From NCBI GenBank assembly GCA_037447655.1, contig JBBHKE010001791.1, positions 62,001 through 126,000 on the forward strand: a DNA stretch of 64,000 nt, in the 5' to 3' direction. Positions 15,422 through 49,600 of the stretch are shown piece after piece. Each line of letters begins with the position of its first letter. Positions within the stretch are counted from its first letter, which is position 1. The position numbers and the translations under genes are program-made. Under the pieces are notes generated by a model that did not search any database, was not told the DNA's origin, and worked only from the letters and a program-made list of their open reading frames with translations. Source of the stretch: Zygnema cylindricum. Lineage: Eukaryota > Streptophyta > Zygnematophyceae > Zygnematales > Zygnemataceae.

Positions 15422-16025
15422 AATTCCCCATGGCGAGAGGTATCTCTCGGTGGAAAATTTTGGCACGGTCAACGATCAGTTTTTCGACGGTTCCCTTGTC
15501 ATCCATTTCCGAGAGGACCACTGCTTGGGCCGAGGTAGCCCTAGGCAGAATGTGATGTCGTCCGAATAAAATGAAGTAAAGACTATAGGAGTCGAGAGAA
15601 GCCTGTCTGCTGAATATGTATCCCATGGCAATCCAAGGCACCCTTTTGTCCCACTCTCCCAAGTCCTCTTCAACTTCATATTTCCGTAGTGACCGCTTCA
15701 CTGTCTGTAGGCATCTTTCGGCCAAACCGTCGGCTTGAGGGTGGTCGCGACTGGTAAGTCGATGGTCGATGAGGCATTTCTCCAAAAGATTAGTAAACTC
15801 TCTGGCGAATTCCGATCCCTGGTTTGTCAAAACCTCTGCTGACGCTCCAAATTGTGACAGGACTCTCTGCAAGAAGGCGTCGACAATGGACTTGGACTCC
15901 TTTCGGGGCAGAACCACAATCTCTATCCATTTTGAGAAATGTTTAATCATGACCAGGACGAAACAATTCCCACGTCGGCTGGTTGGAAGAGGTCCCAAAA
16001 GATTGAAAGACCACTGATAAAACAT
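15421..16025 (-). pseudogene. Gypsy integrase core, minus copy
   Basis: The retroviral-type integrase core would insert the cDNA into host DNA. WSFNLLGPL at its start lies where WSLDLLGPL stands in the plus copy, so the first catalytic Asp reads Asn here. A second block reads TNQGSEF, where a catalytic Asp is expected at the second position. The Glu-containing block LAERCLQTVKRSL is intact. The C-terminal part, present in the plus copy to 35503, is cut off at 15421 by repeat X. Two catalytic Asp positions being altered argues that this copy is dead. Confidence 0.8.
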
Positions 16026-16080
16026 TCTCTGGATAGGAAGAGAATGAAGCTCAGTCCCGCCTTTTTTATCAAAAGATGCA

Positions 16081-17330
16081 TTAACTTGTTCGCAGGAAGA
16101 GCAAGTCTGTACAATTCGGTTGACTTAGGCCCGCAACCCGTGCCACCAATAAAGAACCTGTAGCTAGGGAAGTGGTCCACTTTTGTTCGAAGTGTCCGCA
16201 TTGCTTATGGAGATTGGTAATCAGAGTTTCTCGATCTGATCGAGGAGGAACTACTTTCCTCGTACCGTCTGACCATTTTCGGAGGAGAACGCCTCGGTCC
16301 CATTCATACGCCGCCATCCGGGTCTCAACTCGGGACAATTGAACTCCAGCCAAAGGGGGAAGAGGGGATCCCTGCTGGATAGATTGGAGAGCTTCGGAGT
16401 CATTCCAGATGTCTTTCCGTCTGACTCCTATGGGTGCATGCCCCTCAACATCTGCTGCAAAAGTTGACAATGCTCCCCCAAATGGAGGAAGCCAAATAAA
16501 GGCGGAGGATGCTCGAATGAGTCCCAAACTGATTTCCGGGTCTTCGTCATGTCGAGCTCGTGGAATCCAATGTAGAAGGATCAGGGTTTCGGCTAAGTCC
16601 GTCGGCATTCCCATGGATTTCCCTTGTCGGTGGACAATGTTGAAATCATATTCTTGCAGGATAAGCACCCATCTGGCAAGTTTGTCGGTCAACTTACTAT
16701 TTTCCATGATCCATTTCATGGGTTGGTGGTCGGTAATCAGTGTGAAATGGACCCCGTACAAATAAAGCCTGAAATACTGGATGGCCCATACAGCTGCCAG
16801 AAGCTCCCCTGATAACTGCTATAATTCCCCTCAACTCGGTTGTTGCTCCGGCTGGCGTAGGCCACCACATACTCGGCCCCGACGTCGTCAACTTGAGCCA
16901 AAACAACTCCCAATCCAAACCTGCTCCAATCAGTGTAAAGGAGGAAAGGCCTCTGGTGATCAAGCATCCGGAGCACTGGGTGCTGCTTCAAGGCATCCTT
17001 CAAGAACTGGAAAGAGATATGCTGTTCCTCGGCCCATTGCCATTCTTGATCTTTGCGCAAGAGCTTATTTAGGGGCTGCGCGTGACTACTGAGCTCGGGA
17101 ATAAACCTGCGATAGTAGTTAGCCAGGCCGAGAAAGGTGCGCAAGGTAGAAATGTCCAACGGGGGAGGAAGAGCGTCCAAGGCTACAACCTTAACCATAT
17201 GGGGACCCACTGTCCCGGGAGTCACCTCATGTCCGAGGTAAATAATTTTCTGCACCCTAAAAACACCCTTGCCCGGGTGACATTTCAAGCCCGCCGCTTG
17301 AAGAGTCCGGAGAACGATCTGGATATGCAC
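16081..17330 (-). pseudogene. Gypsy RT C-terminus, RNase H and integrase zinc region, minus copy
   Basis: 16737-17330 carries the RT thumb and connection (GLKCHPGKGVF, YLGHEVTPG, FLGLANYYRRFIPE) and then RNase H (FLLYTDWSRFGLGVVL). 16081-16761 continues with LITDHQPMKWIMENSKL and ARWVLILQEYDFNIVHRQGKS of RNase H and a damaged HHCC zinc-binding region of integrase. A frameshift near 16740-16800 separates the two frames. Confidence 0.85.
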
Positions 17331-17866
17331 TAGGTGTTCTTCAAAGGTCTTGGAGAATATTATGACATCGTCGATGTAGCACCAAGCACAATTGATTCCT
17401 CAGAGGGCTTCGTCCATGGCCCGTTGGAACTTGGCTGGTGCATTCTTCAGTCCCAAGGGCATGTAAATCCACTCATAAAGTGAAGATCCTGCCCAGAATG
17501 TCGTTCTCTTCGATGTTTTGGTTCCATGGCAATCTGGTGGAATTCATTCTTCATGTCAAGGGCGGAGAGGATAGTGGCCCCAGCAAGAGAGTCGAATATC
17601 TCTTCCGGGGTTGGCATTAGATACCGGTCAAGTATGGTGGCCGTGTTCAGCATGCGGTAATCCCCACACATTCGGAAATCCACAGTTTTCCCGGATGAGT
17701 CCTTCTTAGGAGGGAGAACTGTGGGGGAAGCAAACCCATGGAGTCCGGTGCTTTCCTGAACCAACCCGGCGTCCACCAAAGTTTGGACTTTTGCGGTAAT
17801 AAACTCTTTTTCCTTGAAGCTTAGGGAATACTGTTTCTGCCAGACAGTTGCGGTTTCGTCAATCAA
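17331..17866 (-). pseudogene. Gypsy reverse transcriptase N-terminal half, minus copy
   Basis: Fingers and palm of a Ty3/gypsy reverse transcriptase: VQTLVDAGLVQESTG, GFASPTVLPPKKD, FRMCGDYRMLN, MPTPEEIFDSLAGA, LDMKNEFHQI. The YIDD catalytic box follows at about 17370 in another frame. At the position of the plus-copy stop at 32855 this copy reads Trp. Confidence 0.85.
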
Positions 17867-18166
17867 GTCAATCCGAAAGGGGGTTCCTTTGTAAATTCCG
17901 ACATCTGTTTCTGACCATGAGAAAACTTGATTGTTTCACACCAAGAGTTCTGTTAGCTGCTCTTTTTGCTGAGGGTCCAACTGCTCCCCCAGAGTCCAGT
18001 CCATATTTCCCAGCTCAACCGCGGCACACGCTTACGGTGGTCTTCCCCAGAGGTTGATGTCAAATCCTAGCCCCACTTGTGGATCCGCCTCTACTCCTCC
18101 AGATAATACTTTACTACTGAAAACTTCCGCTAAGCAGTCCCCTTCTGAACTAGCGTTCCCCCCTAC

Positions 18167-18766
18167 TCAAGGAACTCTTGGGTGTAGATTTTTTCTCCTT
18201 TCTCTCCCCCCCTCAAGCTGCAAAGTTGCTTGCCTGGACAACAATGTAGGAGCTTGATGGTAGCTGCTGTGTGAATCTGGAGAATGGAGATTGGAATAGG
18301 CAAGAGAGTGTTTTGTAACCCATGTAATGGCATTTAAATCCATGCTCTGCTCTATTAAGCTCCACCTTTGTGTGTCTGAAATACCCGGTGCGGTCGTGGT
18401 TCCCAGATGGTATCCCATGGCTTCTTCTCGTTCCGAAATGGTCGGCGTTGTCCAAATCCCTGCTTTGCTGTCAAAAATCATCCCACTTGCTCCTTTCCGG
18501 TAGGCGTGACTGTGGGGAAAAGAGACCTACTAAGGGAGGGCTCGGCGTGGATATCCGGGTGTATTCCATCGGAAGAAAAGAGTACGATCCGGTTTCGTTA
18601 CAGGTGTTGCCATTCTCCCTTCCCCAAGTATCTCCTGCACGGAAATCTAAGGGTCGGGGGTCTGCTGTTCCAACAATTGCCAGAGAATTGGAAGCGGGAT
18701 CATATTGGTCCAATATGCCCGGAGTCTGTGTGCTCGGGATCCCATCTATGTGGCACACTTAAATAG
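18167..18766 (-). pseudogene. Methyltransferase C-terminal remnant, minus gypsy copy
   Basis: Corresponds to about 31925-32470 of the plus copy. The frame at 18167-18481 contains IWTTPTISEREEAMGYHLG and SMDLNAITWVTKHSLAYSNL, matching the motif IX/X end of the C5-methyltransferase domain. The preceding part (18471-18758) is frameshifted. The catalytic motifs are absent because the sequence between the start of protease and this point is replaced by the copia LTR at 18767-19280. It shows that the methyltransferase belongs to the gypsy family and is not private to one copy. Confidence 0.75.
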
Positions 18767-19280
18767 TGGAGGTCATTAAGTTTTAAAGTATTTTCTAGGT
18801 CTGAATAGAAATAAAGAAGCCGAGGCAGTCTACCTCTAAACTTCTCTCTCCAAACTCTCAAACTTGTCGCAGTCACTGAGAAATTGGAGAGGAAGCTAGA
18901 GCCATGGCTACCTAGGCTATCCTGAGGTTTACGGGAAATTTATATTAGTATAGGGATTAATTACTAAAAGGTATGTGCCGGCGAGTCTGTGAGAGAGATA
19001 AGACTTAGAAAAATTAGAAGATAGGACCCTCTCTCCCAGAGAGCTTCTGTACAAAAGGTCAACTTTGACCCTCTATAACTTACTGCTCAGGGGAGCAAAT
19101 TCAGAGATTCTTTTTGCTATCGACTCAGGGGAGTCTTGTCTTCATAGGGGTGAAGTTGGTCAGAGTTTTTGTCAGTCAGGGTGGCAGTTATTTTTGCCGA
19201 AATACAAAGGGGTCAGGGTTATCCTAGAGGCTTCTTGGAAGCTGTCCACTCTGAAGACTTATGGAGGTCTCAGAGTTTCA
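18767..19280 (+). repeat. copia LTR with internal deletion, inserted in gypsy (copia F)
   Basis: A plus-orientation copia LTR of the 55141-56189 type, ending CTCAGAGTTTCA at 19280. About half the LTR is missing at the junction near 18980, exactly the part that carries the tRNA-like module in the other LTRs. The hairpins with AGGG loops are kept. No internal copia sequence is attached, and flanking pentamers do not match. Confidence 0.75.
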
Positions 19281-19955
19281 CGCCGTGGGTGGTGTTACCC
19301 TGTCGACTTTGTCTTTTTCGGAATGGATCGCTTCACCAAGGGCCTGAATGAGGATTTTTTCTGGCAGATTATGGGAGGAGGCAAGGGTCTTGACATGGGT
19401 TAGGGCATACGGCATTAGGCGCCGGACTAGCATGACAGCCGGCTTGGAGGAATGGAGTGGAACTGTCGGGGATGACTTCTGCGGATCTGGTACCTGGTAC
19501 TGTTCGTTCCCCTCCTTGTCATCACTCTCAGAACCGGAATCGGGCACTGGTGGAGTTCGTGGTGCTTCCTCGTCCGGGCGTTCCGCCATGAATCGCTCAA
19601 ACTAATCTTGATCGCTCTTTTTATCCTCTTCCAATGATTTCTCCTCCCACTGTTGTTTCTTTTTTTGGTAATTTTCGAAACCCGGGGGCAGTTTAGATTT
19701 GGGAGGAGGAGGAGGATAAATGGGCTTGATTCCGAGGCCTATGTCACTTTTTAACAACACTGCCCAGGGCGTGAAAGATAAAGGCCTGGTGGTTTTCTGG
19801 TTGTGGTCTTTAAGGCTCATTTTTTGCCGGTCTCTCCTCTGATCCGAGGTTGAGGAGCGAAGTTGTCTACGACCATCTCCCACTCCCACATTCCACGCTT
19901 CGTGCCGGAAGCTGCCGGCATGGAGGGCATTTAGGGGTTCTAAATCCCAGCCCAT
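19281..19955 (-). pseudogene. Gypsy pre-protease region, minus copy
   Basis: Matches the N-terminal part of the plus-copy protease frame (30045 onward): SFTPWAVLLKSDIGLGIKP, PPVPDSGSESDD, VMLVRRLMPYALTHVKTLAS. A stop separates 19602-19955 from 19278-19589. The protease DTG active site itself is missing, since homology stops at the copia LTR boundary. Confidence 0.75.
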
Positions 19956-20373
19956 TAAATCATCGTCGTTAGCACCCGCTGTGCTTTGAAGTTAAAGCTC
20001 CGCTAGCTTTTGTAGTTACTCCTGTTTCTGACTTAAGAGTCGTTGTGCTGCTGTCAGGGGAGCAGGCCGGGAAGACGATCCCAAACGGAGTGCAACCAAT
20101 TTCGCACCCATAGCGGCCATCTACTGACTCTGCTGTTGGATTATGATCTCTGGTGTAAGTCTTGCTGGAGCAACAGATGCGCGTTCCGGAGTTTCTGGTG
20201 TAGACAGCCTTGGGCGCCCCCAAGGGTAAAGAAGTTGTAGGGGAAGAGGGTTAACGACAGTTTCTCCTCCCCCCGTGAACAAAGCGAATTCCATCATTTC
20301 TTATGGAATTCCGTTCCTCAGAAAAACATTGCCACTCCTTGTGCCCCATAAAACCACAAGCCTCACACTTGTG

Positions 20374-21366
20374 TGCAACTCTAAGACCTCCATAGGTACT
20401 CAGAGTAAGCAGCTTGCTAGAAGCCTCTAGGATAACCTCAGTTCTTTAAGCTTTGTCTCAATATTGCTAACACCCTGACTGAATACAGACTGACCAGACT
20501 GCACCCGTTGGAAGGGCTGACTCCCCTAAGTCTGCCACAAAAAGAATCCTTGAATTTGCTCCCTTGAGTAGTTAATTATCAATGTTCAAAGATGACCCTT
20601 TTATACAAAAAGCTCTCTAAGAGAGAGGCGGCTATCTCTAATTTTCTAAGTCCTAAACCCCTCACTAAGCCCTCTCCTAGTGATATACGGAACCAATCAA
20701 TTGAGTGTAGAGTACAGAAAGGTACTTGGTCCGAAGTACTTTCTGTACGGCCATTGTACGATATGGCTAGAAATACGACGCCTGCCATATCCGGGTTCCC
20801 CATAATATGTCCCGGAGATGCCGTCATCCAATGTCATGCTGCCACGTGTCACCCGTTGTGGTTATGACCGAAAATCGCCAAATCGACCATTCCGCGATGC
20901 CGGCTTCTTTCTCCGTCGTTAGATTAATGTCGACCTTAATTTATAGCCGTTAAAAATACAAGTAGTACATTTCCGGTGTAATTCTATTTTAGCTGTGTCT
21001 GTGTGATTGTGGTCCGTTTGTCAGTAAATCGAACTTCTGTTTTTCGTCATCTTTAAGTAGCTATCGTACCCTATATACTTCAGCACTGGTCTTAGACTAC
21101 AGGGTAAGACTAACGGCTACTTTGACGGATGGTAGGTACCAGGATGAAATCCTGGGTCTGTCAATCCTTTTGGTAAGTTTACCAAGGATCTGCCTTCTGA
21201 CTCTAGAAGGAGCATAGGCAGCCATGGCTCTAGCTTCCTCTCCAGCCTTCATTGACTACGACAAGTATGGGGGCTAGGGAGAGAGGCTAGAAGCAGGCTG
21301 CCTCTGCTTTTTCCTGCTCTTATTTAAATCTTTTAACTAACCTAGAAAATACCTTTTATTTCAACA
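20374..21366 (-). repeat. copia LTR inserted in gypsy (copia C)
   Basis: Starts TGTTGAAATAAAAGG at 21366 on the minus strand and ends at 20374; 993 bp. It contains an antisense tRNA-like module at plus-strand 21091-21162, with a T-arm-like hairpin CCAGG(7)CCTGG at 21139-21155, and hairpin-like AGGG elements near 20500-20580. It splits the gypsy gag zinc-knuckle region. Confidence 0.75.
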
Positions 21367-21480
21367 CTCATCGGATTCCTCCTCGAGTACCTGTGTGACA
21401 AGTGCCTTTTTCTTCCCTCGTGTTTGACCCCCGGTCTGCCCCTCCTTTATCCGAAGCTCGGTCAGTTTGGTGCATTCTGC
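21367..21480 (-). pseudogene. copia gag fragment attached to copia C
   Basis: Reading on the minus strand it matches the copia gag segment after the zinc knuckle (plus-strand 57103-57220 of the young element: TKLTELR, GQTGG, KKKALVTQVLE) but with frame damage. It directly abuts the LTR, so the whole pol region has been deleted. Confidence 0.65.
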
Positions 21481-24400
21481 CGCAGTTGAAACAGGGACAT
21501 TTTCGAAGTTTCACTCCGGGGAGTGAGGCGATAATTGTCCTTTATGACTGGTGTCTTCTCCCCCCTCCCTGCTCCTTTGAGCCATTCTTGCTGCTGCCTC
21601 TAGCCTCATTCTGAACGCTCTACTTCCCATTGATTCAGCTTGAGGGCTAGCTCCGGTTTGAGTTTCCTGCTGCAGCGTTTCCATCCATGTCCCGGTTGTT
21701 GACAATTTAGGCAATTGTACAGAATTACCCGATCGTCTGCCCCCATTGCAGGTTCAAACCCGCTGTCCGCAGCTTGCTTCCCTTTAAGCTTCCGCAAAGC
21801 TTGAAGTTCTGCTTGTTCTTCCCCACTCAAGGAAGTTTCCCTAGCGAATCTTGTAAAATTCGCTCAGCCCTTGCTGGTTACGACCTTCTCCCTTGCCTCA
21901 CTGTGAACAAAGTGGTCGTATAACTTCATTGCCACCAGTGAGATGTCCTTGGCAGAGGGATTTATGTCTTGGATTGCTTGTTCGGCAATCCAATTGTTCA
22001 AGGCAGTCTGCCTTGTCGGCCCGAAAATTTTAAGAATAGCTATAAAATACTTTGTGGCCATTGCAGGAAGGTCAATGGTTGACAGCTTAGTTTTCTGGCA
22101 AAGGCTTGAAAGACAGTTGAAGAGAGTCTAGGGAGTCTCGTTTTTCAAACATCGGAATTCCGTGAATTCCTTGATTAGTGATTCATTCCTCTCAGTGTAG
22201 AGGAGTCTCTCGATATTAAGGAGGGTAGTGCAAGGTTTGGGGTTGGCCACCATGCGAGTTGCTGCCCGGGCTTCCTGGATAGCGTGCAGCTGGTTAACAT
22301 AGGCATTTCCTTGTGCCTATAGTTTCATGTCCTGTGTAAATGTAGGAGTCACATGGGTCGCGCGGCCGCCGCCAAGTTAGCCCCAGCTTGCAAAACAGCG
22401 GCATCAAGGGTTGGATCCGAGATCTTGATGCTAGGAGACATCAAAAGAGGTTGACGCTCCTTGTAATCCACCAACGCCCCTCCCAACAGGTAGTTGACCA
22501 TCATGGGGAAGAGAGTGGTTTCGAAGTCATCGGAAATGGCTCCTCCCCTGTATTTATTGATTTCTGATTTGGTGAATGACAACAACTCGAAATCCGAGAA
22601 AGCGATCCGTGAGCTATCTCCCGTAAAGATCCGGATATCCCCCATCTCTTTTTCTTCCTCGGCAGAGTTCGTGAAATGAGAAGAGAAAGGCCCGGTGGGG
22701 CAGACAAACTGAGCGGGTGAAATGACTCTAGTATCCTCTTCCTCGGGATCGGAACCAAGTCCCTCTCTGCTAGACGGTGCGGCTCCTTGTGGCGTGGATC
22801 CCCCTTCCACTGAGGAAGTACCAGCGCCGAAAAGATGGTGGTCGGTAGGATGTCCCCCACTACTCCTCTATGTCGAGCGGAATATTGTGGATCCCGGAGA
22901 AGAGTTGCCACCGATAGAATGTGGAGACGCGGCTTGTTCATAGGATTTTGGTGGATTGTTGGTGGTAGAGACGGCGAATGAGATGGAGACGAAGACGGCC
23001 GAGCCCTTGCGGGAGAAGGAGTCTGTATCCTGTTTCGCCTCTTAGAGGTCTTAGGAGGTGAAGTGGCGGAGCTGGTAGGGGAGCGTCGGTGAAGCGGGGA
23101 ATAGGCGGGTACGTTGTATTTGTAGGGTAACACCGGCCGACCAGGCGACCCACGGACAGCTGCAGCAGGAGAAACGGATGGCGAATGAGAGGGATCTGGA
23201 CAGTCCTGAGGTTTTGTCGAGGGTTCCGAGGAGTGAGAGGAATAAGGTGGAAGTGTAGAAGAGGAGGGCTCCGGGGATTTTTTGAGAGAAGTGTGAGGAG
23301 GTGTAGGAGTCCTCAAAGGGATGTGAGTCCTCTGGTCGGTTCGTAACTCCACTAAAGCCTCCACAGCAGTAGACACCTCCACCGCGACAAAGGTAGTCTC
23401 TCCCTGAAGAGCCAAAGTGTTTCCAGAAGGTAGATCTGCACCCAAACCCTCCACATTACGTCCTGTGTTTTCCTCCCCTTTCCGCGGAAGGAGAGACTCT
23501 TGGCTTGGCTCCGAAAAAGGCATTTCAAGATGAGTGTTGGCTAGAGGGGAAGTTCGCGCTACTGGGGTAGGAGGAATCTTCCCGCTAAGAATCCCACTGG
23601 TCCGGCGCCGAGCTTCCCTAATGAGCATCAATTCTTGTTCCCATGCTTGTCGCCTCTCTTCCTCTAATGCCTCCCAATCTACCGTGACGAGTCTGGCCCC
23701 CGCCGTAGCCTGTCGTTGGGATTTCAAAACCTCCAAAGTTCCTTGCCTTTTTCCACTACTTTGGTAAGATCCGCTATCTCGATTCCCGGAATTTCAAGAT
23801 CATTAGGTTTGGTACGCCACCATCCTTCGGACAAATCTTCGGGTCCCATACCCGGAACCTCGAGATCGGTAGGTCTGGATCTCCAAAGCCCTTCGGCAGG
23901 GCGGACACGAGTTGTGGTGGGAGCAAGTCTCTCGGTGGAGGGTGGAATAGGAGTCGGGGACGTTTCCTCTTTGGGGAAAGGTGCAAATCTCCCCTTGCTG
24001 TCACGGTGGTCAAACTTTTTTCCCCTAACTGGATTTCGCGCGCCCCTTTTGATACCCCCTTCTACTCTACGAGGCCGAGAAGAGGTACCTTCCCGATGGG
24101 TTGGCTGGCTGCGGTGTCCTGAGAGGAAGATGGGGGAGGGCGAGAATAGGGAGTGAACTTAGATCGGTCTTGCACCGACTCTGAAGAGCTGCTCTTCGAA
24201 GAATTGCTCAAAATCTCCACCACCCCTCCAACGGGTCTAACCACTCTGACTCGATTTGTCCGCGCCACTCTCTGTACCAACTCCTTCTTCACCTTGAGCT
24301 CATGGAGGTCGTGAAGGGCAAGGAGTTCCTTACGCCCTGGTCGACGTGTGTCCGTCAAAACAGCGGGGTCAATCTGGATCTCGGCCCGGGGAATCTTGGA

Positions 24401-24720
24401 TCGGGTATGTAGCTTGACCTCGGGAAGGGGGCCTACATGGGGCTCCCTCTACGCTTGCCTCTTTGGCCGAGCCCCGGGATACTCCCTATTCCTCTCCTCA
24501 GCATGGACCCTGGCGGCTTCTGCCAAAGAGGGGTAATGTTCGCGAGTCTGACTGGGAGGTGGAGGAGGAGGAGAACCACCAGACAGTTCCTTGGCTGGCG
24601 ATCCAAAAACAGTCTCCATGGGCTTCGACTCCTCGGACCTCGAAGATTTCCCTTCCGGCATGTGCCTCTCCGGTCGATCTTGCCCTCCGGATCGTTATCC
24701 GGAGTCTCTCCTCCCCCCAT
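21481..24720 (-). pseudogene. Gypsy gag, minus copy
   Basis: Gag forms the retrotransposon particle. The N-terminus starts MGGGETPDNDPEGK (24720), then a Pro/Ser-rich arm (24062-24358 and 22501-23736), a capsid-like domain (22349-22810 and 21606-22061) and a first CCHC knuckle CLNCQQPGHGWKRC near 21710. A second knuckle, CEACGFMGHKEWQC, lies beyond the copia C insertion near 20330-20370. Several stops and frameshifts divide it. The sequence is parallel to 26138-29855 of the plus copy. Confidence 0.8.
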
Positions 24721-24842
24721 GATAACATAGGTGTAAGGGGAAAGAGTTGTGAATAGAACTAAAGCTCGCTTCCTAAGAGAGGGCTTCCAAAGTGAAAGCT
24801 CCTATCCCCTCTAATCCGAGAAGACAAGTGGCTCTTCACTAC

Positions 24843-24982
24843 TGTGCTTTGTCGACGGGAAGTCTAACGCATTTGTTCCCTCAAAACCCACTGTCCTGAT
24901 CTAGGGGGTTTTCAGCTTACTCCAGACAAGTAACTCCAAAGCAAAGAGAACTTCAGATGAAGATACAAATGCACTACCACGT

Positions 24983-25017
<35 letters not shown>

Positions 25018-25394
25018 TAAATATGATTGGCTTTCCAGATTTAACAATATCACCTTGCCCCAGAAAAGAGAATAAAAGATATAAAATGTGAAATGTAGCG
25101 AAACGAGCTCAACATACCCCAGCAATCAACGATGAAAATGAGGAAAAGGCGACTCCTCTCCCAAGAGTGTCGTCAAAAGGTATGGTACTCGAGCAACCTT
25201 CAGTGAACTGATCAGACTCTTCTCGGTTCCAAACAGCAAAAAGTCTAAAATCACCCAAAAAATTAGATATTGCCAACTACCCGCCCGGACTGTGATTTCC
25301 ACAAAAGACAGATCCAAAACCAAGATGGCAATAGAGTCGAATCAACACAAAGATTCTCCAAAAGAAGGTTTGTTGGAATTTCTAAGGGTTTTCA
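24843..25394 (-). repeat. Gypsy terminal repeat X, copy upstream of gag (candidate 5' LTR)
   Basis: Reads TGAAAACCCTTAG from 25394 to ...AAAGCACA at 24843 and matches 14880-15421. It contains an expanded TA microsatellite near 24985-25013. The following leader (TTGTCTTCTCGGATTAGAG...) is shared with the leader of the plus copy. Confidence 0.6.
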
Positions 25395-26137
25395 CAGGAG
25401 AGAGTATTGAAAAGCAACCTGTCTCCTTCGACCCCAAGTGCCTTATACATCAAAGTTTGTCATTTTGCAAGTCCGAAAGTCAAAGCTACGCTATTAACCA
25501 ATGAGCGGCAAGCAAGTGTAATGGAAGTGACACAAGGCAAATTGATTCGTACTACACTTGGGGCAAAAAGTTCTGCTCTAGACTGCGGCTAGATCCGCGG
25601 CCGGAAGTAATTATTTAGTCACCTATTATAAGACAAAATCCTGAAAATGACACTAACTTGTCAGACTTTGACCTAAGGTAATTAAGGGACCAAAAGTGAG
25701 CTGAGCCGGAGCTCAATTCCTACTAACGGCCAACAGCATAATCTAGATGGAAATCCGGAAAGTTACGTGGCAATCCACAATGTTCCCCCTACGGAGGCTG
25801 TTGGATATAGGTCTCAGGTAACGGAATTGCAATCTTTGAAACGGTAGAACTTGGTCATTTGGCCTCCGTTAGACGTGAAATAAAGTGCGTTCCGCTCAGT
25901 TTAGGAAATACAAGGATCTCGTCCGGCTTGGTGCACTCACTTCTCCGTACTCTGAAGACCGTAAAGGGTAAAAAGGGCCCGGAAATCCTTGTTGATATAA
26001 AGGTATGCTTGAAAAGCACATGAGCTTGACATGTCTTCTCGGATTAGAGAGGATAGGAGCTTTCACTTTGGAAGCCCTCTTTTTGGAAGTGAGTTTTAGT
26101 TTTATTCACCACTTTTTCCCCCTACACCTCTTTCATC
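25395..26137 (+). repeat. 5' flank / candidate 5' LTR and leader of plus gypsy copy
   Basis: The sequence up to about 26020 ends GAAAAGCACA, the same terminal word as repeat X, and then enters the leader shared with the minus copy (CATGTCTTCTCGGATTAGAG). It is otherwise unlike repeat X and unlike segment Y, so its identity as LTR is only likely. No gene. Confidence 0.45.
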
Positions 26138-27718
26138 ATGGGGGGAGGAGAGACTCAGGATAACAGATCCGGAGAGCAAGGTCGATCGGAGAGGCCCATG
26201 CCGGAAGGGAAATCTCTGAGGTTCGAGGAGTCGAAGCCCTTGGAGGTTGTTTTTGAATCTCCAGCCAAGGAAACGGCTGGTGCTTCTCCTCCTCCTCCAC
26301 CTCCCAGTCTGATTCCTGAACATTACCCTTATTTGGCAAAAGCCGCCAAGGTCCATGCTGAGGAAAGGAGGGAAACTAGGGCCAAAGCCCAGGAAAGGAA
26401 CAGGGTGTTTCCCAAGGCCCAACCAAAGAGGCAGGCGCAGAGGGAGTCCCATGTGGGCCCTCTTCCCGAGGTCGGGCTACATACCTGATCCAAGATTCCA
26501 CCGGCGGATATCCAGATTGATCCCGCTATTTTGACAAATCCACGTCAACCACGTCGTAAGGAACTCCTGACTCTTAACGACCTCCATGAGCTGAAGGTGT
26601 AGAACGATCTGGTACAAAGAGTGGCTCGGACCGATCGAGTCAGAGTGGTTAGACCCATGGGGGGGTTGGTGGAGATTTTGAGAAGTTCATCACGGAGCAT
26701 CTCTTCCCAGTCGGTGTATGACCGGTCCCAGAGAGCTCCCTATTCTGGCCCTCCCCCATCTTCCTCTCAGGACACCGCAGCCAGCAGACCCACCCGGGAA
26801 GGTACCTCTTCTCGGCCTCGTAGAGGAGAAGGGGGTAACGAGAGGGGCGCACGAGAGCTAGTGAGGGGAAAGAGGTTGGACAACCGTGATAGGAAAGGTA
26901 TATTTGCACCTTTCCCCAAGGTGGAGACTTCCCCGACTCGTATTCCACCCTCCACCGAGAGACCCGCTCCAAACACCACTCCTGTCCGCTCTACTGAAGG
27001 GCTCTAGAGATCTAGACCTACCGATCCCGAGGTTCCGAGTACAGGACCAGAAAATTTTTCCAAAGGATGGTGGGGGACCAAACCTAATGATCCCAAAATT
27101 CCCGGAATAGAGATAGCATTTTACCAAGTAGTGGAAAAAGCCAAGGAACTAGTGAAGGTTTTGAAATCCGTGGGACAGGCTACGGCAGGGTTCGGACCCG
27201 TCACGTTAGAATGGGAGGCCTTAGAGAAAGAGAGCCGAAAGGCATGGGAACAGGAATTGACGCTCATTAGGGAAGCTCGGCGTAGGACAAGTGGGATTCT
27301 TAGCGGGAAGATTTCTCCTACACCAAAGATACGGTCGCATTTAGAAGCCCCAGCAGCGGGGACTTCTCCTCTCGCTAGTACTCATCTTGAAATGCCTTCT
27401 TCGGAGCCCAGCCAAGAGCCTCTCTGTCCGCGGCAAGGGGAGGAAAACACAAGACCTAATGTGGAGGGTTTGGTTGCAGATCTACCTTCTAGAAACGCTT
27501 CATCTCTTCGGGTGGAGACTACCTTTGTCTCGATGGAGGTGTTACCTACTATGGAGGCATTAGTGGTGTTACGACCTGACGAGAGGATTCACATCCCCTT
27601 GAGGGCTCCGACACCCCCTCTCACTTCTCCCATGAAATCCCCAAAGCCCCTATCTTTTGCTCCTCCACCTTATTCCACTCACTGCTCGAAACACACCACA
27701 GAACCCCGCGACTGTTAG
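26138..27718 (+). pseudogene. Gypsy gag N-terminal arm, plus copy
   Basis: Starts MGGGETQDNRSGEQGR at 26138. One frame (26138, 26621, 27131) is interrupted by stops near 26486 and 26600 and again before 27131. It is rich in Pro, Ser, Arg and Glu, like the N-terminal extension of the minus copy. No enzymatic motif. Confidence 0.7.
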
Positions 27719-28271
27719 ATCCCACTCCTTCGCCATCCGTTTCTCCTGCTCCAGCTGTCCGTGGGTCACCTAGTCCGCTAGTGGTACCCTACAAATACGA
27801 CTTATGCGCCTATTCCCAGCCTCACCGACGCTCCCCTTCCTCCAGCTCTAGACCTTCATCTTTTAGACCTCTAAAAGACAAACCAGGAGACAGACACCTT
27901 TCCCCGCAAGGGCTGCGCCGTCTTCTTCTACATCCCATTCTTCGTCTCCGCCACCAACAATTCTCCAAAAGCCTGGGAACAAGCTGCTCCTCCATATCCT
28001 ATTGGTGGTAACCGTTCTCCAGGATCCATAATATTCTGCTAGATATAGAGGAGTAGTGGGGGACATCCTGCCTCCAACAATCATTCCTGGCGATGGAACT
28101 TCCTCATTCGGAGGGGGATCCACACCATAGGGGGTTGCACCTTCTAGCAGGGAAGGACTCCGTTTCGATCCTGAGGAAGAGGATACGAGAGTCATCTCGC
28201 GCGCTCTGTTTGTCAGCCCCACCGGGCCATCCTCTTCCCATTTCACCATCTTTGCAGAGGAAGAAAAGGAA

Positions 28272-29855
28272 ATGGGGGATATTCGGATCTTTACTAGAGA
28301 TAGCTCAAGGATTGCATTATCAGATTTTGAGTTGTTTTGGAAATCTTTCACCCAATTTGAAATAAACAAGTACCGGGGGGGAGCCATTCCGGATGACTTC
28401 GAAACCACCCTCTTCCCCATGATAGTCAACTACCTGTCTGGAGGGGCGTTGGCATATTACAAGGAGCGTCAACCTCTTTTGATGGCTCCTAGCATTAAAA
28501 TCTCGGATCCAGCCCTTGATGCCGCTGTTTTGCAAGCGAAGGCGGACTTGGCCGTTGCTGCGACGACCCCTATGACTGGTACCTTTACACAGGGCATGAA
28601 ACTACAGGCACAAGGAAGTGCCTATGTTAACCAGCTGCACGCGATCCAGGAAGCCCAGGCAGCAACTCGCATGGTGGCCAACCCAAACACTTGTACCACC
28701 CTGCTGAATATCTGGAGACTCCTCTACACAAAGAGGAACAAGTCTGCAATCAAGGAATTCACGGAATTTCGATGTTTCAAGAACGAGACTCCCCAGACCC
28801 TTTTTAACGAACTCTCCAATACTTTTCAAAAGACAAAGCTGTCCACGATTGATATTCCGGCAATGGCCACAAAATATTTCATCACCGTCGATAATTCCTT
28901 CGGGCCGACATGGCAGAATGCACTCAACAATTCGATTGCCACACAGTCAATTGAGGACATTAATCCCTCAGCCAAGGATATTTCTCTGGTGGCCATGAAG
29001 ATGTATGACCACTTCGTTCAAAGTGAGGCAAGGGAAAAGGCCGTGACCAGCAACGCCCGAGCAAATTTGGCAAGATTCGCTGGGGAGACCTCTTTGAATG
29101 AGGAGGAACAGGCTGAACTTCAAGCTCTTCCAAAGCTTAAGGGGAAGCAAGTGGCTTAATGATAGCGGGTCCGAGCCACCTATGGGAGCAGATGAGCGGG
29201 TATTTCTCTATAATTGCCTAAATTGTCAGCAACCAGGTCATGGGTGGAAGCATTGCACCAGAAAACTTAAACCGGAGCTAGCTTTGAAACTTAAAGAATG
29301 GGAGAAAGAACAAGCAGAAAGAACCTTGAAACAGCAAAAAAGGCTCAAGGGGGAAGGGGAGAGGACAAGACATGGGTAACGAAAGAAAATTACCATCTAA
29401 CTCCACGGAGCGAAACCACTAAGATGTCCCAATCTCAGTTGCAGCAAATCAAACTTCCAAAGTTTGATGACACCCAAATCTCCAACGAAATGCGGAGTAA
29501 ATATACTACTGAAAGCGCCAAGTGCAAAGCTTGTGGATTTATGGGGCATAAGGAAGGGCAATGTTTCCGGAAGAATGGAATACCGAAGGAAATGATGCAG
29601 TTTGCTTTGTTTACTGGGGAAGGGGAAATCTCCATTAACCCTCTACCCCTCCAACTCCTTTACCTGTGGGGGCGCCAACTTATGCTAACACCGAGAAGAC
29701 CTGAGCGAGTTCCGGTGGCTCCGACAAAGTTTACGCCGGAGATCATCATACAGCAACAAAGTCAGCAGTTGGCCGCGATGGTTGCACAGTTAGCTTCCCT
29801 CCGCTTGGGATCTTCTTGTTGGCCTGCACCTCTTACAGCAGCCCAACAACTCTAA
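28272..29855 (+). pseudogene. Gypsy gag capsid and zinc knuckles, plus copy
   Basis: 28272-29159 encodes a 295-residue capsid-like segment (LLNIWRLLYTKRNKSAIKEF, ETPQTLFNELSNTF). It is followed in shifted frames by two CCHC knuckles, CLNCQQPGHGWKHC (29214-29255) and CKACGFMGHKEGQC (about 29523-29564). Such knuckles bind the genomic RNA during packaging. The minus copy has both knuckles in the same order. At least two frame changes separate the parts. Confidence 0.8.
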
Positions 29856-30044
29856 AGAAAGAGACAGGAGTTGCTACCGAAGCTCGCGGAGCTTGAGTTT
29901 TAAGGCACAGAGGGTGCCAATGATGACGACTTATTGAGCTGGGATTTAGAACCTCCAAATTCCCACCATGCCCGAAGCTTCCCGTTCGGAGCTTAGAATG
30001 TTAAGGTAGGAGACAATCGTCGCCAACTCCGCAACTCCACCTCG

Positions 30045-31202
30045 GTGCAAAAACAGGACCATCAGAAAATGGGTCAGAGGGACCACAACTGTAAAGCCAC
30101 AGGGCCTTTGTCATTTACGCACCGAGCCCTGATGCTGAACCGCGACATCGGCTTAGGAATCAAGCCCACTCACCATCCATCTCCTTCTCCCAAACCTAAA
30201 TTGCCTCCCGATTTCGAAAATTACCAAAACGGGAAACAGCAGCGAGAGAAGGAGGTATTCGAACAAGAGAAAAAGGACAATCAGGACTGGTTTGAGAAAT
30301 ACATGGCCGAACACCGTGAGAATGAAACTCCCCAAACCCCTCCTATTCCAGATTCTGGCTCAGAGAGTGAGCAAGATGGACAAAATCCGGATCCGCAAGA
30401 ACCGAACTCCTACACCTCTTCACCAAAAGCAACACTTCCCTCCTCCAAGTCGGCTGTCATGCTCGTCCGGCACCTGATGCCCTATGCTCTCACACACGTA
30501 AAGACTCTAGCATCGTCCCATAACCTGCCCGAAGAAATCCTCATCGAGGCATTGGGAGAAGAAATCCACTCTGGAAAGGGGGGGGTAGACCAGACCACTC
30601 CTCCAACCGCTTTATTTTTATCAACCGATCCTAAAACCCCTATAGTGGATAGGGACTACAAAGCCTTATCAGTGGCTCACATACTGAAAGAACCAGAAAC
30701 TTCAAGTTCAACAGATACGGGGGATACCAGGACGTTGTGGTCGACCAGAGCTCTCCCCAACCTCATTACCACCTCCGCTTTGCAGAAAATGCCCGAAGAA
30801 CTTCGGCCCGAAATCTGCCCTAGTAGCATATGCTTAAGCACCGTAAGCAACGGCAGTCAAATAGTCCATGGAATAATCAAAGCCATGGATATCGAGTTTT
30901 CGGATGACAGAGGCCAACGCGTGAAAATTGAGCTTCCCTTTTTGGTGGTGGAAGGGACTCAATTCAAAATTTTGTTGGGGATGGCTACCTGGACACGTCT
31001 TAATATGAGTTTGAGCGTGTGGAAAGAACAGTGTACAATTTGGGACCCCAAAAATCCGAAAGGAACCAAAGTGGTGGTTTCGCTGGATTTATGGAACCGG
31101 GGAAAGACAAATGTCCCAGTATTTGGGTGCTACCTGGTGTACACAACATCCTCACCGACGGAACTGTTTGGCAGTTCCCCCGATATCGCTAAAGAAATCT
31201 AG
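30045..31202 (+). pseudogene. Gypsy aspartic protease region, plus copy
   Basis: A 385-codon frame. After a Pro-rich linker (KPTHHPSPSPKPKLPPDFEN) and the block VMLVRHLMPYALTHVKTLAS comes a retropepsin-like segment with Asp-Thr-Gly at residues 224-226 and the second half motif FLVVEGTQFKILLGM. The protease would cleave the polyprotein. A TAG at 31200 ends the frame. The same reading frame continues through a second stop (TGA 31374-31376) directly into the methyltransferase, so the two were probably one polyprotein. Confidence 0.75.
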
Positions 31203-31376
31203 CAATTCCAAATTTCCAAGCGGTGGGAAAAGGAATATAAAAATAGGTTATTACAGGTAGCGAAACTCCGGTGGGGAGTGGATAAGGCATTTTCAACCTT
31301 GGCGTTGAAGGAAGCAGTTTCTACCCCACAGTCGAGTGCTTCCAAACCAAAGACAAGTAATAACGAATTCAATTGA

Positions 31377-32420
31377 CATTTGGTGTCCTTAGCAGTTCCC
31401 GATGCCGGACTGCGTATTTTATCTCTATTTTCAGAAATTAGTTCTGATTTAGAAGCGGTATTGAAAACAAGATTTCTGGTGGAGTCATACACAGCCCTGG
31501 AAGTCTCTCCCGAGGTAAGGGCTGTGAGCGAACATCGCCTCCACCAACTTCATCACCTATATCCTCAACAGCTTCCAGTATCAGCCATCTCCAAAGCTCA
31601 CCGCAGTCTTCCACACAATGTAGAGAACATCATGGCTACCCACATGGCCAGTTTGGGAAGAGTGGATTTGGTGTTAGCAGGCTGGCCTTGTCAAGGATAC
31701 TCCCTAGCGAACAAGGAAAAAAACATCAAGACCGCAGAAGTGGAACCTTTTTCCGATTGATCGAATTAATCTCTTGGCTACAACAGCTCTAGGAAACACC
31801 GGTTGGGTACGTGCTGGAGAATGTCCACCTGGGAGATGATAGACAGAAACAGGTCGCAGACAGCTGGAATTACGTAACCCGGATTTTAGGGGCTCCCTTA
31901 GTTTTCGACGCAGCGCGGATGGGATCACGAGCACACAGAGTCAGAGCATATTAGACCAACATGATCATGCTCCCAGCCCTCCGACAACTGTTGGAAAAAG
32001 TAATTCCCAACCCGACAATTTCCGTTCAGCAAATACTTGGGGAAGGAAGAATAGCCACACCTGTGACTCGACCCGATCGCCCACACTCCTTTCGGTGCAA
32101 TAGACCGAGATTCCTACGAAAAGCCCTCTCGACCTTGGTTTCTTTCCCTCATTGTCACGCATATCAAAAAGGAGCAGCAGGAATGATTTTTGAAAGCAAA
32201 GCGGGAATCTGGACAACACCGACGATCGTCGAACGGGAAGAAGCAATGGGATTTCACAAAGGAACAACGACAGCACCAGGTATGTCAGACCTTCAGAGGA
32301 GCAGCCTTCTAGGGCAAAGTATGGATTTGAATTCGGTCACATGGGTTCTAAAGCATGCACTCGTTTATTCCAGTCTCACGTCCCCGGAATCCACGGCTAA
32401 ATACCTTCAAGCTCCCCAGT
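31377..32420 (+). pseudogene. C5-cytosine DNA methyltransferase domain inside gypsy pol
   Basis: Shows the motif order of a C5-DNA methyltransferase, which transfers a methyl group from S-adenosylmethionine to cytosine. Motif I region LRILSLFSEISSDLEAVL (31410-31463), with loop glycines replaced. Motif IV DLVLAGWPCQGYS, with the catalytic Cys codon at 31689-31691. Motif VI YVLENV (31808-31825) after GTFFRLIELISWLQQL. Motif VIII-like FDAARMGSRAHRVRAY (31898-31945). Motif IX/X region REEAMGFHKG...LLGQSMDLN (about 32240-32330). A frame change near 31720 and stops at 31792 and 31952 disable it. The family assignment rests on several motifs in order; the subfamily (DNMT1, DNMT3/DRM or other) is undecided. 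It lies between protease and RT in the same orientation. Confidence 0.82.
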
Positions 32421-33650
32421 TGTTAGCGATGGACGCAACTTTGCAGCTTGAGGGGGGGAGAGAGAGGAGAAGAAAAAGAGAGAGGAGAAGAAAAACCAAA
32501 ATTCACAGTTTACACCCGCAAGTTTTCCTAGTGGGGGGGGACAGCGGCTCAGATTGCGATAACTTAGCGGAAGTTATCAGCACCAGTGTCCTAGCCGGAG
32601 AGGTAGGGGCAGATCCACCGATAGGGTTGGAATTCGACATTAACCTCTGGGGTAGACCGCCGGAAGCTTGGGCTGCCGTTGAGCCGGGGAAAATGGATTG
32701 GACCCTGGGGGAGCAATTAGACCCTCAGCAGAAGGCGCAACTCTCAGAGCTGTTGGACGAAAACAAACAAGTGTTCTCATGGTCAAAAACACATGTTGGT
32801 ATCTACAAAGGAACACCTTTCCGAATCGGTTTGATCGACGAGACGGCTACTGTCTAGCAGAAGCAGTATCCTCTCAGTTTGAAGGAAAAGGAATTCATCA
32901 CGGCTAAAGTCCAGACCTTGGTGGAAGCCGGATTGGTTGAGGAAAGTACAGGACTTCATGGGTTCGCTTCCCCGACAGTCCTCCCTCCAAAAAACGACTT
33001 GTCCGAGAAAACTATATATTTCCGGATGTGTGGAGACTATCGCATGATGAACATGGCCACCATCTCTTATTGGTGTCCGATGCCGACTCCGGAAGAGATA
33101 TTCGACTCTCTTGCAGGCGCTACTATATATTCCACTCTGGACATGAAGAATGGTTTCCACCAGATTGTAATGGAACCAAAGCACCGGGAGAGAACTGCAT
33201 TTTGGGCTGGTTCCAGACTTTATGAATGGATTTACATGCCTTTCGGGCTTAAGAATGCACCAGCAAATTCCAACGGGCAATGGACGAAGCGCTCTGAGGG
33301 ATCGATTGCGCCCGGTGCTATATTGATGACGTTATTATATTCCCAAAGACTTTTGATGAACACTTGGAGCATATCCAAATTGTTCTCCGGGCACTCCAAG
33401 CAGCGGGCTTGAAATGTCACCCGGGCAAAGGCATTTTTGGGGTGCAGAAAATCATTTACCTCGGACAAGAGGTGACTCCTGAACTGTGGGTCCCCACATC
33501 GTCAAGGTGGCAGCTCTTGACGCTCTTCCCCCACCAAAGGACATCTCGGCCCTTCGCACTTTTCTGGATCTGGCCAATTACTATCGGCGGTTCATCCCAA
33601 AATTCAGTAGTCACGCCCAGCCCCTTAACTAGCTATTCCGGAAGGACCAA
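32421..33650 (+). pseudogene. Gypsy reverse transcriptase, plus copy
   Basis: The N-terminal extension contains QLSELLDENKQVFSW. After a TAG at 32855-32857 (Trp in the minus copy) the palm region follows from 32879: VQTLVEAGLVEESTGLHGF, FRMCGDYRMMN, MPTPEEIFDSLAGA, STLDMKNGFHQI, MPFGLKNAPA. The YIDD box is readable at about 33317-33330 but in a shifted frame. 33364 onward carries GLKCHPGKGIFGVQKIIYLG. A charged Arg-rich stretch near 32455-32500 links methyltransferase and RT. Confidence 0.85.
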
Positions 33651-34285
33651 GAGTGGTAGTGGGCCGAAGAACAGCAGATCTCCTTCCATTTCTTGAAGGA
33701 TGCTTTGAAGCAGCACCCGTGCTCCGGATGCCTGGTCACCAGAGACCTTTCCTCCTTTATACTGATTGGAGCAAGTTTGGATTAGGAGCGGTTTTGGCTT
33801 TAGTCGATGATGCCGGGCTGAATATGTGGTGGCCTACACTAGCCGGAGCAACAACATAGCACAAGGGAATTATAGGAGTTACCACGCAGAGTTACTCGCA
33901 GCGGTTTGGGCCATCCAGCATTTCCGTCCTTATTTGTACGGAGTCCATTTCACCCTGAATTACTAATTTCCAGCCCTTAAAATGGATCATCGAAAATAGT
34001 AAGTTGATCGGCAAACTCGCCAGATGGGTACTTATCCTGCAGGAATATGATTTCGACATTGTTCACATGGCAGGGGAGATCCACGGGAATACCGACAAAC
34101 TTAGCCGGAATCTTGATCCCTCCTTCATGGATTCACCGGGACTCGGCATGATGAGGACCCGGAGATCAGCGTGGGAATCATTCGAGCCTCCTCTGGTTTT
34201 ATTTGGCTTCCCCAAGCTGGGGGGAACTGTCAACTTTCTCTGCCGATCTGGAGGTGCAGGCTCCTATAGGAGCCAGACAGAATGA
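33651..34285 (+). pseudogene. Gypsy RNase H, plus copy
   Basis: RPFLLYTDWSKFGLGAVLAL (33653 frame) contains the first catalytic Asp of RNase H. 34004-34285 carries ARWVLILQEYDFDIVHMAG and DKLSRN, the end of the domain. Frames are broken between them, and the block matching LITDHQPMKWI of the minus copy is damaged (33950-33990). Confidence 0.8.
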
Positions 34286-35503
34286 CATCTGGAACGACTC
34301 CGACGTTCTTTAATCCATCCACCAGAGGTCACATCTTCCCCACTTGACTGGAGTTCCGTTATCTTGGGTGCAGACCCGGATGGTTTTTGTATGATTGGGA
34401 CAGAGGTGTTCTCCTTCAGAAATGGTCAGACGGCACAGGGAAAGTGGTTCCTCCCCCCTCTGACCGAGAAACTCTGATTTCCAATCTCCATCGGCAATAT
34501 GGACACTTCGGGCAAAAGCAGACCACTTCCCTAGTTACGGGCTCTTATTGGTGATAGGTTGCGGACCAAAGTCAACCGAATTGTGCAAACTTGCTCCTCA
34601 TGCGATCGAGTTAAGGCAGCTTTTGACAAGAAGGGCGAGAATGAGCTTCATTCACTTTCTATCTGAGGGATGTTTTATCGGTGGTCTTTGGATCTTTTGG
34701 GACCTCTTGTGACCAGCAGGCGGGGAAACCGCTTTGTGCTGGTCAGGATAGAACATTTTCCAAAATGGATTGAGTTGGTGGTTTTGCCTCGGAAGGAGTC
34801 TAAGGCAATTGCAGATGCCTTTTTGCAAAGAGTTATGTCCCAAATTGGAGCTCCTGCGGAAGTTCTAACCGTCGAAGGCTCCGAATTTGCCGGAGAATTT
34901 TCGAACCTCTTGGAAAAATGCTTCGTCGACCATCAGCTGACCAGTCGTGACCACCATCAAGCCGACTGTTTGGCTAAAAGGTGCGTACAGACAGTGAAGC
35001 GGTCACTACGAAAATATGTCGTGGAAGAAGATTTGGGAGAGTGGGACAAAAAAATGTCTTGGATTGCTATGGGTTACCGATTTAGCAGGTAGGCTTCTCT
35101 CCATTGCTATAGCCCTTATTTCATTTTCTTTGGACGACATCCCATCCTGCCCGGAGCTACATCGGCCCAAGCGGTGGTCCTACCGGAGATGGATGACAAG
35201 GGGACAGTCGAGAAACTAATCGCCGACAGAGCCAAGGTATTCCACCGAGAGATGCCTCTAGCCATAGGCAATTTGCAGGTGGCTCAACACCGAGATCAAT
35301 TGTGGTATTCTCACCGCCGGAGTGGGAATTATGTGCCCCGGCAGCGACGATTTATGCCGGGGGACTTTGTATATCGAATGCAACAAAAGAAAAACAAGCT
35401 GGATATTTCGGCCGGGAGAGTAATCTTGAAAGAGGTTGAGGTTTCCAACAAAGGGGTTCTTACCTTCGAGGGGAAAGATGGTCGACGAATTAAAGAAAAT
35501 TAG
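34286..35503 (+). pseudogene. Gypsy integrase, plus copy
   Basis: A damaged zinc-binding region (34470-34620) precedes the core WSLDLLGPL (34670 frame). The second catalytic block reads TVEGSEF and the third LAKRCVQTVKRSL, so the second Asp and the Glu are both replaced. 35174-35503 has the C-terminal domain (RRFMPGDFVYRMQQKKNKLD, GVLTFEGKDGRR), which is missing in the minus copy. No chromodomain was seen. Confidence 0.8.
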
Positions 35504-35777
35504 ATCAATGTGGCCCTCGCCATCTTTGGGGATTCGAAGACGAACCCACTTTCCACTTAACTTACTTTGCCTATCCCCCCTCTTGTTCACCAACTTGCAA
35601 CCAGTCCTCCCAGCTTCTCAACTTATTGGTCTGCAATCAGTGTGGTCGGTGTTGGCATTCAGCCTGTACCCCCTCCTCTTGGGAGCCACACCCTCTACCC
35701 TCCAACATCTGGTTCTGTGGGAACTGCGAATGGAGCGGGTGGTTGTTTTTTTTTATATATCTTAGTCACGATTGACT

Positions 35778-35791
35778 AAGAAGGGGGGAAA
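35778..35791 (+). other. Polypurine tract of plus gypsy copy
   Basis: AAGAAGGGGGGAAA lies after the end of the integrase frame and directly before segment Y. It is the expected primer site for plus-strand DNA synthesis. Confidence 0.65.
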
Positions 35792-36019
35792 TTGGGATAT
35801 CAACCCGATTACCAACACCCTAATCCTTTCCCCCGGCTAGGGAGGGGGGAGAAGGGAAAGGGGATTACTTTCGCTTTCCCCCTGCCCTCATCGCTATTCC
35901 ATGCCCACGCCTCCCTTCTATTGTGCATGCATATCTGTAAGAGGGATGCGGTAGCAGTTGGTATGATCATCATTTTGGGAAGCATTCGCATTTGGGGTTT
36001 ATTTGCATGACTCCAATAC
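35792..36019 (+). repeat. Start of 3' LTR (segment Y) of plus gypsy copy
   Basis: Begins TTGGGATATCAACCC after the polypurine tract and aligns with the reverse complement of 14641-14879. It is interrupted by the copia LTR at 36020. Confidence 0.6.
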
Positions 36020-39355: not shown

Positions 39356-45670
<6,315 letters not shown>

Positions 45671-48250: not shown

Positions 48251-48289
48251 CACACACAATATATACAATACTAACACTACCCTAATGCA

Positions 48290-49600
<1,311 letters not shown>

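Follow-up and report, generated by a model that had tools for sequence, protein, structure and literature searches.

The window, a 64,000-nucleotide stretch of Zygnema cylindricum DNA (assembly GCA_037447655.1, contig JBBHKE010001791.1, positions 62,001 to 126,000), holds two decayed copies of a Ty3/gypsy retrotransposon, one on each strand. Copy A, on the plus strand, carries a C5-cytosine methyltransferase (MTase) domain with gag and protease on its 5′ side and reverse transcriptase (RT) on its 3′ side; its full order is leader, gag, protease-like stretch, MTase, RT, RNase H, integrase (IN), PHD finger, polypurine tract, and the start of repeat B. The features below were delimited by eye or with blastn, Pfam, and tblastn; the tblastn query for the MTase was the domain of P0002, a Pol protein with an intact frame taken from a JGI sequence.

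26029..36016, plus: copy A, decayed Ty3/gypsy element (blastn against copy B, Pfam, tblastn with P0002)
28131..29159, plus: copy A, open stretch at the gag position (open reading frame list; conserved with copy B, dN/dS 0.18)
~29215-29256 and ~29523-29564, plus: copy A, two CCHC-like motifs 3′ of the gag-position stretch (by eye)
29997..31202, plus: copy A, open stretch, protease-like (DTG..., LLG...; by eye)
31377..31760, plus: copy A, MTase N piece, motifs I to IV with the catalytic Cys (GWPCQGYS; 46% identical to P0002)
31712..32440, plus: copy A, MTase C piece, motifs VI, VIII, IX, and X, in another frame and with stops (42% identical to P0002)
32511..33696, plus: copy A, RT pieces (PF00078, E 1.8e-9 and 2.9e-6; 70% identical to P0002 over 173 columns)
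33692..34141, plus: copy A, RNase H region (PF17917, 6.9e-11; PF17919; tblastn with P0002)
34387..35551, plus: copy A, IN, H2C2 and rve core, both below threshold (tblastn with P0002, 63% over 331 aa, 34559-35551)
35593..35727, plus: copy A, PHD finger at the C terminus of Pol (PF00628, 24.5 bits against a cut-off of 24)
35778..35788, plus: copy A, polypurine tract AAGAAGGGGGG, adjoining repeat B (from the sequence)
35789..36016, plus: copy A, repeat B1 (71% identical to copy B 14880-14649)
14649..25394, minus: copy B, second decayed element with later insertions (blastn)
24843..25394, minus: copy B, repeat A1 (72.8% identical to 14880-15421)
14880..15421, minus: copy B, repeat A2 (sequence comparison with A1)
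14649..14880, minus: copy B, repeat B2 (71% identical to copy A 35789-36016)
18230..18772, minus: copy B, C-terminal half of the MTase (41% identical to P0002, E 2e-38; 71% identical to copy A over 161 columns)
18775..19280, plus: copia-LTR-like fragment, in place of copy B's missing protease and N-terminal MTase half (blastn)

The two copies are 72-81% alike across three long aligned blocks (blastn), and each retains only part of an A-coding-B-A-B repeat arrangement. A copia-LTR-like repeat starts at 36020, just after repeat B1 of copy A; in copy B, there is a further repeat-derived insertion at about 20374-21315, and the stretch before repeat A2 gave no match to the IN end, PHD finger, or B1 of copy A. 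Ordinary terminal LTRs were considered for copy B and rejected on comparison of its repeats (A1, A2, B2 layout). The leaders of the two copies (26029-26500 in A, 24360-24829 in B) differ at 56 of 441 aligned sites (12.7%), well below the pS of 0.52-0.63 at synonymous sites in pol, as if the leaders had been exchanged or were constrained.

Elsewhere in the window lies a young copia element (55140-61590) with LTRs at 55140-56189 and 60541-61590 that are 98.7% identical and open frames of 613 and 840 aa; LTR pieces related to it occur at 36020-37351 and 18775-19280. Host genes encode a two-repeat MYB domain (1429-2028, minus) and a ubiquitin-specific protease (exons within 39284-43948, plus), and an AT-rich array of diverged tandem units of about 50 bp with a long TA run spans 48250-49565.

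The MTase domain of copy A (31377-32440) is frame-broken: its first part lies at 31377-31760, and the rest, interrupted by stops, follows in another frame at 31712-32440. A first-pass annotation made from the letters alone had claimed methyltransferase motifs in canonical order, and the translations of the two frames contain all of them in that order: RILSLFSEISSD, GWPCQGYS, LENV, GSRAHRVRAY(stop)TN, and TTPTIVEREEAMGF, which we take to be motifs I, IV, VI, VIII, and IX, respectively. The Pfam profile PF00145 scored the N piece at 18.1 bits (E 0.002; cut-off 22) and a longer piece at 17.3 bits and did not match the C piece, so the profile check proposed in the annotation is no more than suggestive on the window itself; the close relative P0002 passes the cut-off (39.2 bits). 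As Pfam alone stays below its cut-off, the identity of the window's domain is settled by its homology to this intact relative (tblastn), which aligns to the N piece at 46% over 119 aa (E 2e-31, 31401-31757), to the C piece at 42% over 238 aa (E 3e-59, 31712-32425), and to copy B at 41% over 181 aa (E 2e-38, 18772-18230, minus). With NCBIfam and PHROGs, the N piece gave weak dcm and phage methylase matches; for the C piece, the single weak match was to a PHROG without assigned function. Searched against the protein database, the C piece returned nothing at E 0.001 among 578 candidates despite its 42% alignment to P0002, which we attribute to the short-word prefilter, and a scan of IMG/VR gave 7 distant matches (30-48% over parts of the domain). 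The annotation's reading of a Ty3/gypsy element with a C5 methyltransferase before RT is borne out by Pfam (RVT_1, RNase H, rve) and by homology to P0002. As for its proposed protease-MTase-RT order, the placement of MTase before RT holds in the window, and the protease, recognized there by eye and with no Pfam match, is profile-confirmed in the relative P0042 (protease-MTase-RT-RNase H-IN-PHD in one frame).

Despite its PCQ motif, the enzyme is best classed, on sequence profiles and a predicted structure, as DNMT3-type. DNMT3 structures are the best PDB matches of both window pieces, at weak E values (0.03 and 0.16). A profile built from 12 relatives matched DNMT3A first (3.6e-24), then 3C and 3B, with DRM at 6e-14 (aligned to profile positions 5-136 only), M.HhaI at 1e-9, and DNMT2 at 3e-8; the motif order is not rearranged, unlike that of DRM. 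The MTase domain of P0002 was modeled with a pLDDT of 81.1 and a pTM of 0.84, and the best 50 of 187 Foldseek matches to this model at E ≤ 0.001 are DNMT3 structures, with target-normalised TM-scores of 0.73-0.80 for DNMT3 chains of catalytic-domain length. Likeness to cellular DNMT3A/3B extends over fold, motif order, and the motif VIII pattern AHRxRxxW; the aligned cellular chains have PCN in motif IV, whereas the family here has PCQ or ECQ and sits within a Pol polyprotein. Across 39 database MTase rows, motif IV reads PCQ in 21, ECQ in 13, PCE in 3, PCV in 1, and a gap in 1. The catalytic Cys occupies all 39 rows without a gap at that position (the window plus 38 from the database), the motif VI Glu 40 of 40 rows, and the motif VIII Arg 41 of 41.

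The host genome was searched as a 352.8-Mb assembly of 2689 contigs. It gave nine matches to the RuBisCO small subunit, a family that also scored in a cyanobacterial control; together with the MYB and ubiquitin protease genes of the window, they point very probably to a green plant. PF00145 gave at least 123 scored matches (782 candidates), all over the cut-off, and the P0002 MTase at least 113 (1784 candidates) at 42-56% identity; these counts are lower bounds, with RT checked in part and identical rows on some contig pairs that may be haplotypes. The intact copies sought in the first-pass annotation exist, as 24 of the 113 matches are without stops and one locus has MTase through PHD finger in a single frame. 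Sixteen loci of 10 kb were drawn from the PF00145 matches, mainly for long frames; RT follows the MTase in 15 of them (L030, a 29-residue match only), and IN is found in 13. The single-frame locus, L018, encodes 2394 aa; its MTase, RT, RNase H, IN, and PHD finger all score over their cut-offs, and a CCHC motif falls below. In L021 and L022, one frame covers MTase-RT-RNase H-IN, and the PHD finger matches are sub-threshold. Tyrosine recombinase had no match in these three frames, in which rve and H2C2 integrase domains are present. Six distinct loci have PCQGYS and are 61-63% identical to the C piece of the window (subfamily 1), and six have ECQGMS, in which Glu replaces the proline before the catalytic Cys, at 33-39% (subfamily 2; L018, L019, L020, L024, L026, and L033); the motif IV pattern was not found in L011 or L028. 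The window's element thus belongs to a large family that still has intact, recently inserted members, those of the ECQ subfamily included.

Relatives among database proteins were collected by RT and by MTase. The RT search returned 32 proteins, 18 of them (P0002 to P0018 and P0021) in the clade of the window's element (support 100/99) in an RT tree that leaves out the long-branched P0020, P0031, and P0064. The other 14 lie outside the clade, 11 by this tree and P0020 and P0031 by an earlier tree only, with P0029 in neither. In eight clade members, the part before RT spans 300 residues or more, and six of the eight carry the MTase there (P0014 and P0015 being near-identical); P0010 and P0017 have no MTase upstream of RT despite that length, and the remaining 10 of the 18 are cut too near RT to show its presence or absence. 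Outside the clade, none of the 12 proteins (of 14) with 300 residues upstream has an MTase before RT. P0064, a long branch outside the clade in the earlier RT tree, may represent a separate capture of the MTase. Residues 170-486 of P0010, before its RT, match the MTase profile weakly (hhalign E 2e-4, probability 47%), lack the catalytic motif, and are possibly a degenerate MTase. Beyond the PHD finger, P0010, P0012, and P0017 have a further stretch with DPWSGNGTT, which resembles a class I methyltransferase motif; that of P0010 had no PDB match.

With the P0002 MTase as query, 35 proteins were retrieved, P0002 itself among them; 9 are named Marchantia polymorpha and indicate that at least one bryophyte has such elements; proteins named Closterium are also among the family. 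Both searches combined yielded 39 MTase-bearing proteins. The MTase precedes RT in 12, as in P0002 (MTase-RT-RNase H-IN, single frame), and P0058 reads MTase-RNase H-IN. In 8 others, the order is RT-RNase H-MTase, with IN next in 7 of the 8, and P0059 and P0062 show MTase-IN with RT not covered. The remaining 16 have only the MTase of the four domains, in their C-terminal part (among them P0047, with a short RT match); four of these were scanned, and weak, sub-threshold gag- or protease-like matches lie upstream in P0035, P0037, and P0061, with none in P0046. The RT tree unites the elements whose MTase follows RNase H in a single clade (8/8, 100/99), and the MTase tree does the same for these plus P0059 and P0062 (10/10, 100/100).

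Split repeats in the order A1-coding-B1-A2-B2, that is, A only on the 5′ side and B-A-B on the 3′ side, are present in 6 of 9 own-genome loci tested, and none of these six regular loci has its coding region framed by two complete LTRs. Identity within the A1/A2 and B1/B2 pairs is up to 100% (100% over 931 bp in L018; 80% for the A pair of L020), and such near-perfect identity means that some insertions are recent. The regular arrangement was not found in L019 (no A1 within the 10-kb stretch), L021 (no repeats), or L022 (C1374), which has the repeat order B..B-A rather than B-A-B. All six regular loci start with TGTCATGC and end with GACA, giving TG..CA ends of the form TGTC...GACA, and are flanked by 4-bp target duplications that are exact in four and match at three of four bases in two. 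The B1/A2 junction GACA-GC-TGTC is a perfect palindrome in 7 of the 16 loci (the six regular ones and L019), and the 17-mer across it, CACGACAGCTGTCATGC, occurs 148 times in the genome, the backward control 0 times. A G-rich tract directly precedes B1 in L018, L020, L023, L024, L027, and L033, at the same place as in copy A; by eye, a tRNA-type primer site was not seen after A1 in the six regular loci.

This end anatomy suggests integration from a circle. Plus-strand priming at B1 would give DNA of the form B-A-coding-B-A, the ends of which differ from those of integrated elements. If this DNA then circularised, joining A to B, and the integrase opened the circle at the internal B|A junction, where GACA-GC-TGTC contains both element ends, the product would be exactly A-coding-B-A-B with a 4-bp duplication; a circular intermediate seems the likeliest path to that arrangement. 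More tentatively, the family may be a Ty3/gypsy lineage whose DDE integrase acts on a circle opened at the palindrome GACAGCTGTC and whose Pol-borne DNMT3 methylates that circle, which would need to survive in the nucleus and could thereby pass as host DNA; we regard this combined scheme as possible but somewhat doubtful.

Selection was measured between copies and across loci. Over the MTase half shared by copies A and B, dN/dS is 0.15 (1.41 and 1.29 when the same stretch is read in the two other frames), and third codon positions account for 80 of 144 differences; the third-position excess and the low ratio mean that the MTase was selected as a protein before the copies decayed. The other domains of the two copies give 0.09 (RT), 0.12 (IN), and 0.18 (gag). 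Among MTases of 14 own-genome loci, the median dN/dS is 0.23 (0.10-0.37) over the 18 usable pairs of 91, with 69 saturated and 4 near-identical pairs set aside, and for RT it is 0.08 (0.04-0.29) over 5 usable pairs of 66 (58 saturated); by these medians, the MTase evolves faster than RT. The two window copies and their subfamily have CpG observed/expected ratios of 0.62-0.67; the second MTase subfamily has 0.89-0.92. CpG depletion was considered as a mark of self-methylation and rejected as uninformative: the copia element, which has no MTase, shows 0.66 and the ubiquitin protease gene 0.52, and since depletion is comparable without an MTase, there is no MTase-specific deamination mark.

The stretch 31377-32440 is the decayed DNMT3-type Pol domain of an old Ty3/gypsy copy; its presence, domain order, enzyme class, conserved catalytic residues, and selection as a protein are shown by the results above, as are the recent insertions and split ends of the family. 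We think it probable that the enzyme methylates newly made element DNA, with integration from a circle and guidance by the PHD finger. The MTase is made as part of Pol (protease-MTase-RT-RNase H-IN-PHD) and would be carried by it to the new double-stranded DNA, which it would methylate de novo before or during integration, and the PHD finger would direct insertion toward a histone mark. The likeliest role of the MTase would be to methylate the cDNA of its own element. Weighing against this reading are the lack of an MTase-specific CpG mark, the Glu in place of the motif IV proline in 13 of 39 database rows and the recently inserted subfamily, the faster evolution of the MTase than of RT, the three loci without regular split repeats, the tRNA-type primer site not seen after A1, and the negative yeast result for KnitGypsy-Dnmt3 (PMC5890265). 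Alternatively, the chief targets of the enzyme might be host chromatin or rival elements, reached in trans, as when it conditions the insertion site together with the PHD finger. That finger lies in the same Pol, and a high copy number could supply enzyme to the host nucleus; however, fusion to Pol places the enzyme beside reverse-transcribed DNA, and Klebsormidium nitens, described as having fewer such elements, has a land-plant-like methylome (PMC5890265), and we hold a mainly trans role to be unlikely.

Equally improbable, in our estimate, is that the domain was kept for a non-catalytic role (binding nucleic acid or SAM, or folding of Pol), with catalysis no longer present, or no longer needed, in the ECQ subfamily if not more widely. 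Motif IV is ECQ in 13 and PCE in 3 of the 39 database rows and ECQ in six own-genome loci, the pre-RT region of P0010 is weakly MTase-like without the catalytic motif, and P0017 has no MTase; yet the Cys, Glu, and Arg of motifs IV, VI, and VIII are present in every row counted, and the MTase is under purifying selection both between copies A and B and among own-genome pairs. From the sub-threshold Pfam score of the window alone, one might have suspected motifs arisen by chance, or a host methyltransferase gene that was captured once or inserted as a nested piece. This reading, to which we give almost no weight, is refuted by copy B, P0002, P0042, and own-genome loci, all of which have the domain in the corresponding position, as the first-pass annotation expected of other family members.

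The 2018 report by de Mendoza and colleagues that the first-pass annotation named exists and describes the same kind of element, so the principle was indeed known: KnitGypsy-Dnmt3 of K. nitens has a gypsy Pol with Dnmt3 in its frame and, according to the Fig. 4 legend, DIRS-like repeats (PMC5890265). Its catalytic residues are described as conserved and the domain as under purifying selection, and the enzyme produced no methylation in yeast, a result its authors call inconclusive (PMC5890265). Set beside that published description, which matches it in the Ty3/gypsy Pol, in-frame Dnmt3-type domain, conserved catalytic residues, purifying selection, and A-coding-B-A-B repeats, the window's element is of the same kind, and the kind itself is not new. 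The host differs (K. nitens there, Z. cylindricum here), and the words PHD, protease, and split repeats are absent from the main text of that report (PMC5890265). K. nitens does not occur among the named database matches of this analysis. SymbioDIRS-Dnmt3 and SymbioLINE-Dnmt of Symbiodinium likewise have a DNMT inside a retrotransposon coding region, SymbioDIRS also occurs in two domain orders, and SymbioDIRS DNMTs are described as methylating CG de novo in yeast (PMC5890265); unlike the Ty3/gypsy family here, which has a DDE integrase, they are LINEs or use a tyrosine recombinase. DIRS elements share the A-coding-B-A-B arrangement (PMC5890265) but use a tyrosine recombinase, unlike the rve/H2C2 integrase, TG..CA ends, and 4-bp target duplications of the family here. 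Some DNMT3s are more generally described as embedded in LTR and DIRS retrotransposons (PMC12344493).

Among the literature matches listed, taken as titles and the starts of abstracts in a coverage outside which most subscription journals lie, there was no report of Marchantia, Closterium, the present host, or any further plant besides that of the 2018 report as hosts of such elements. In the searchable literature, we likewise found no report of an MTase between RNase H and IN as a clade of its own, of a recently inserted subfamily with ECQ as its catalytic motif, or of an end anatomy suggesting integration from a circle. The wider spread, the second MTase position, the ECQ variant, and the end anatomy go beyond the published accounts found.

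Retrotransposons bearing the type of enzyme that is used to silence them are a standing puzzle, and the Ty3/gypsy case was known from one alga in the 2018 report (PMC5890265). The kind is now seen at high copy number in Zygnema; it also occurs in database proteins that bear the names Marchantia polymorpha and Closterium and in many others without a species name. From the end anatomy comes a specific hypothesis, open to testing, for the insertion of elements that combine split repeats and a DDE integrase, and, because the domain occurs in several hosts and at two positions, selection for it looks general, which can itself be tested.
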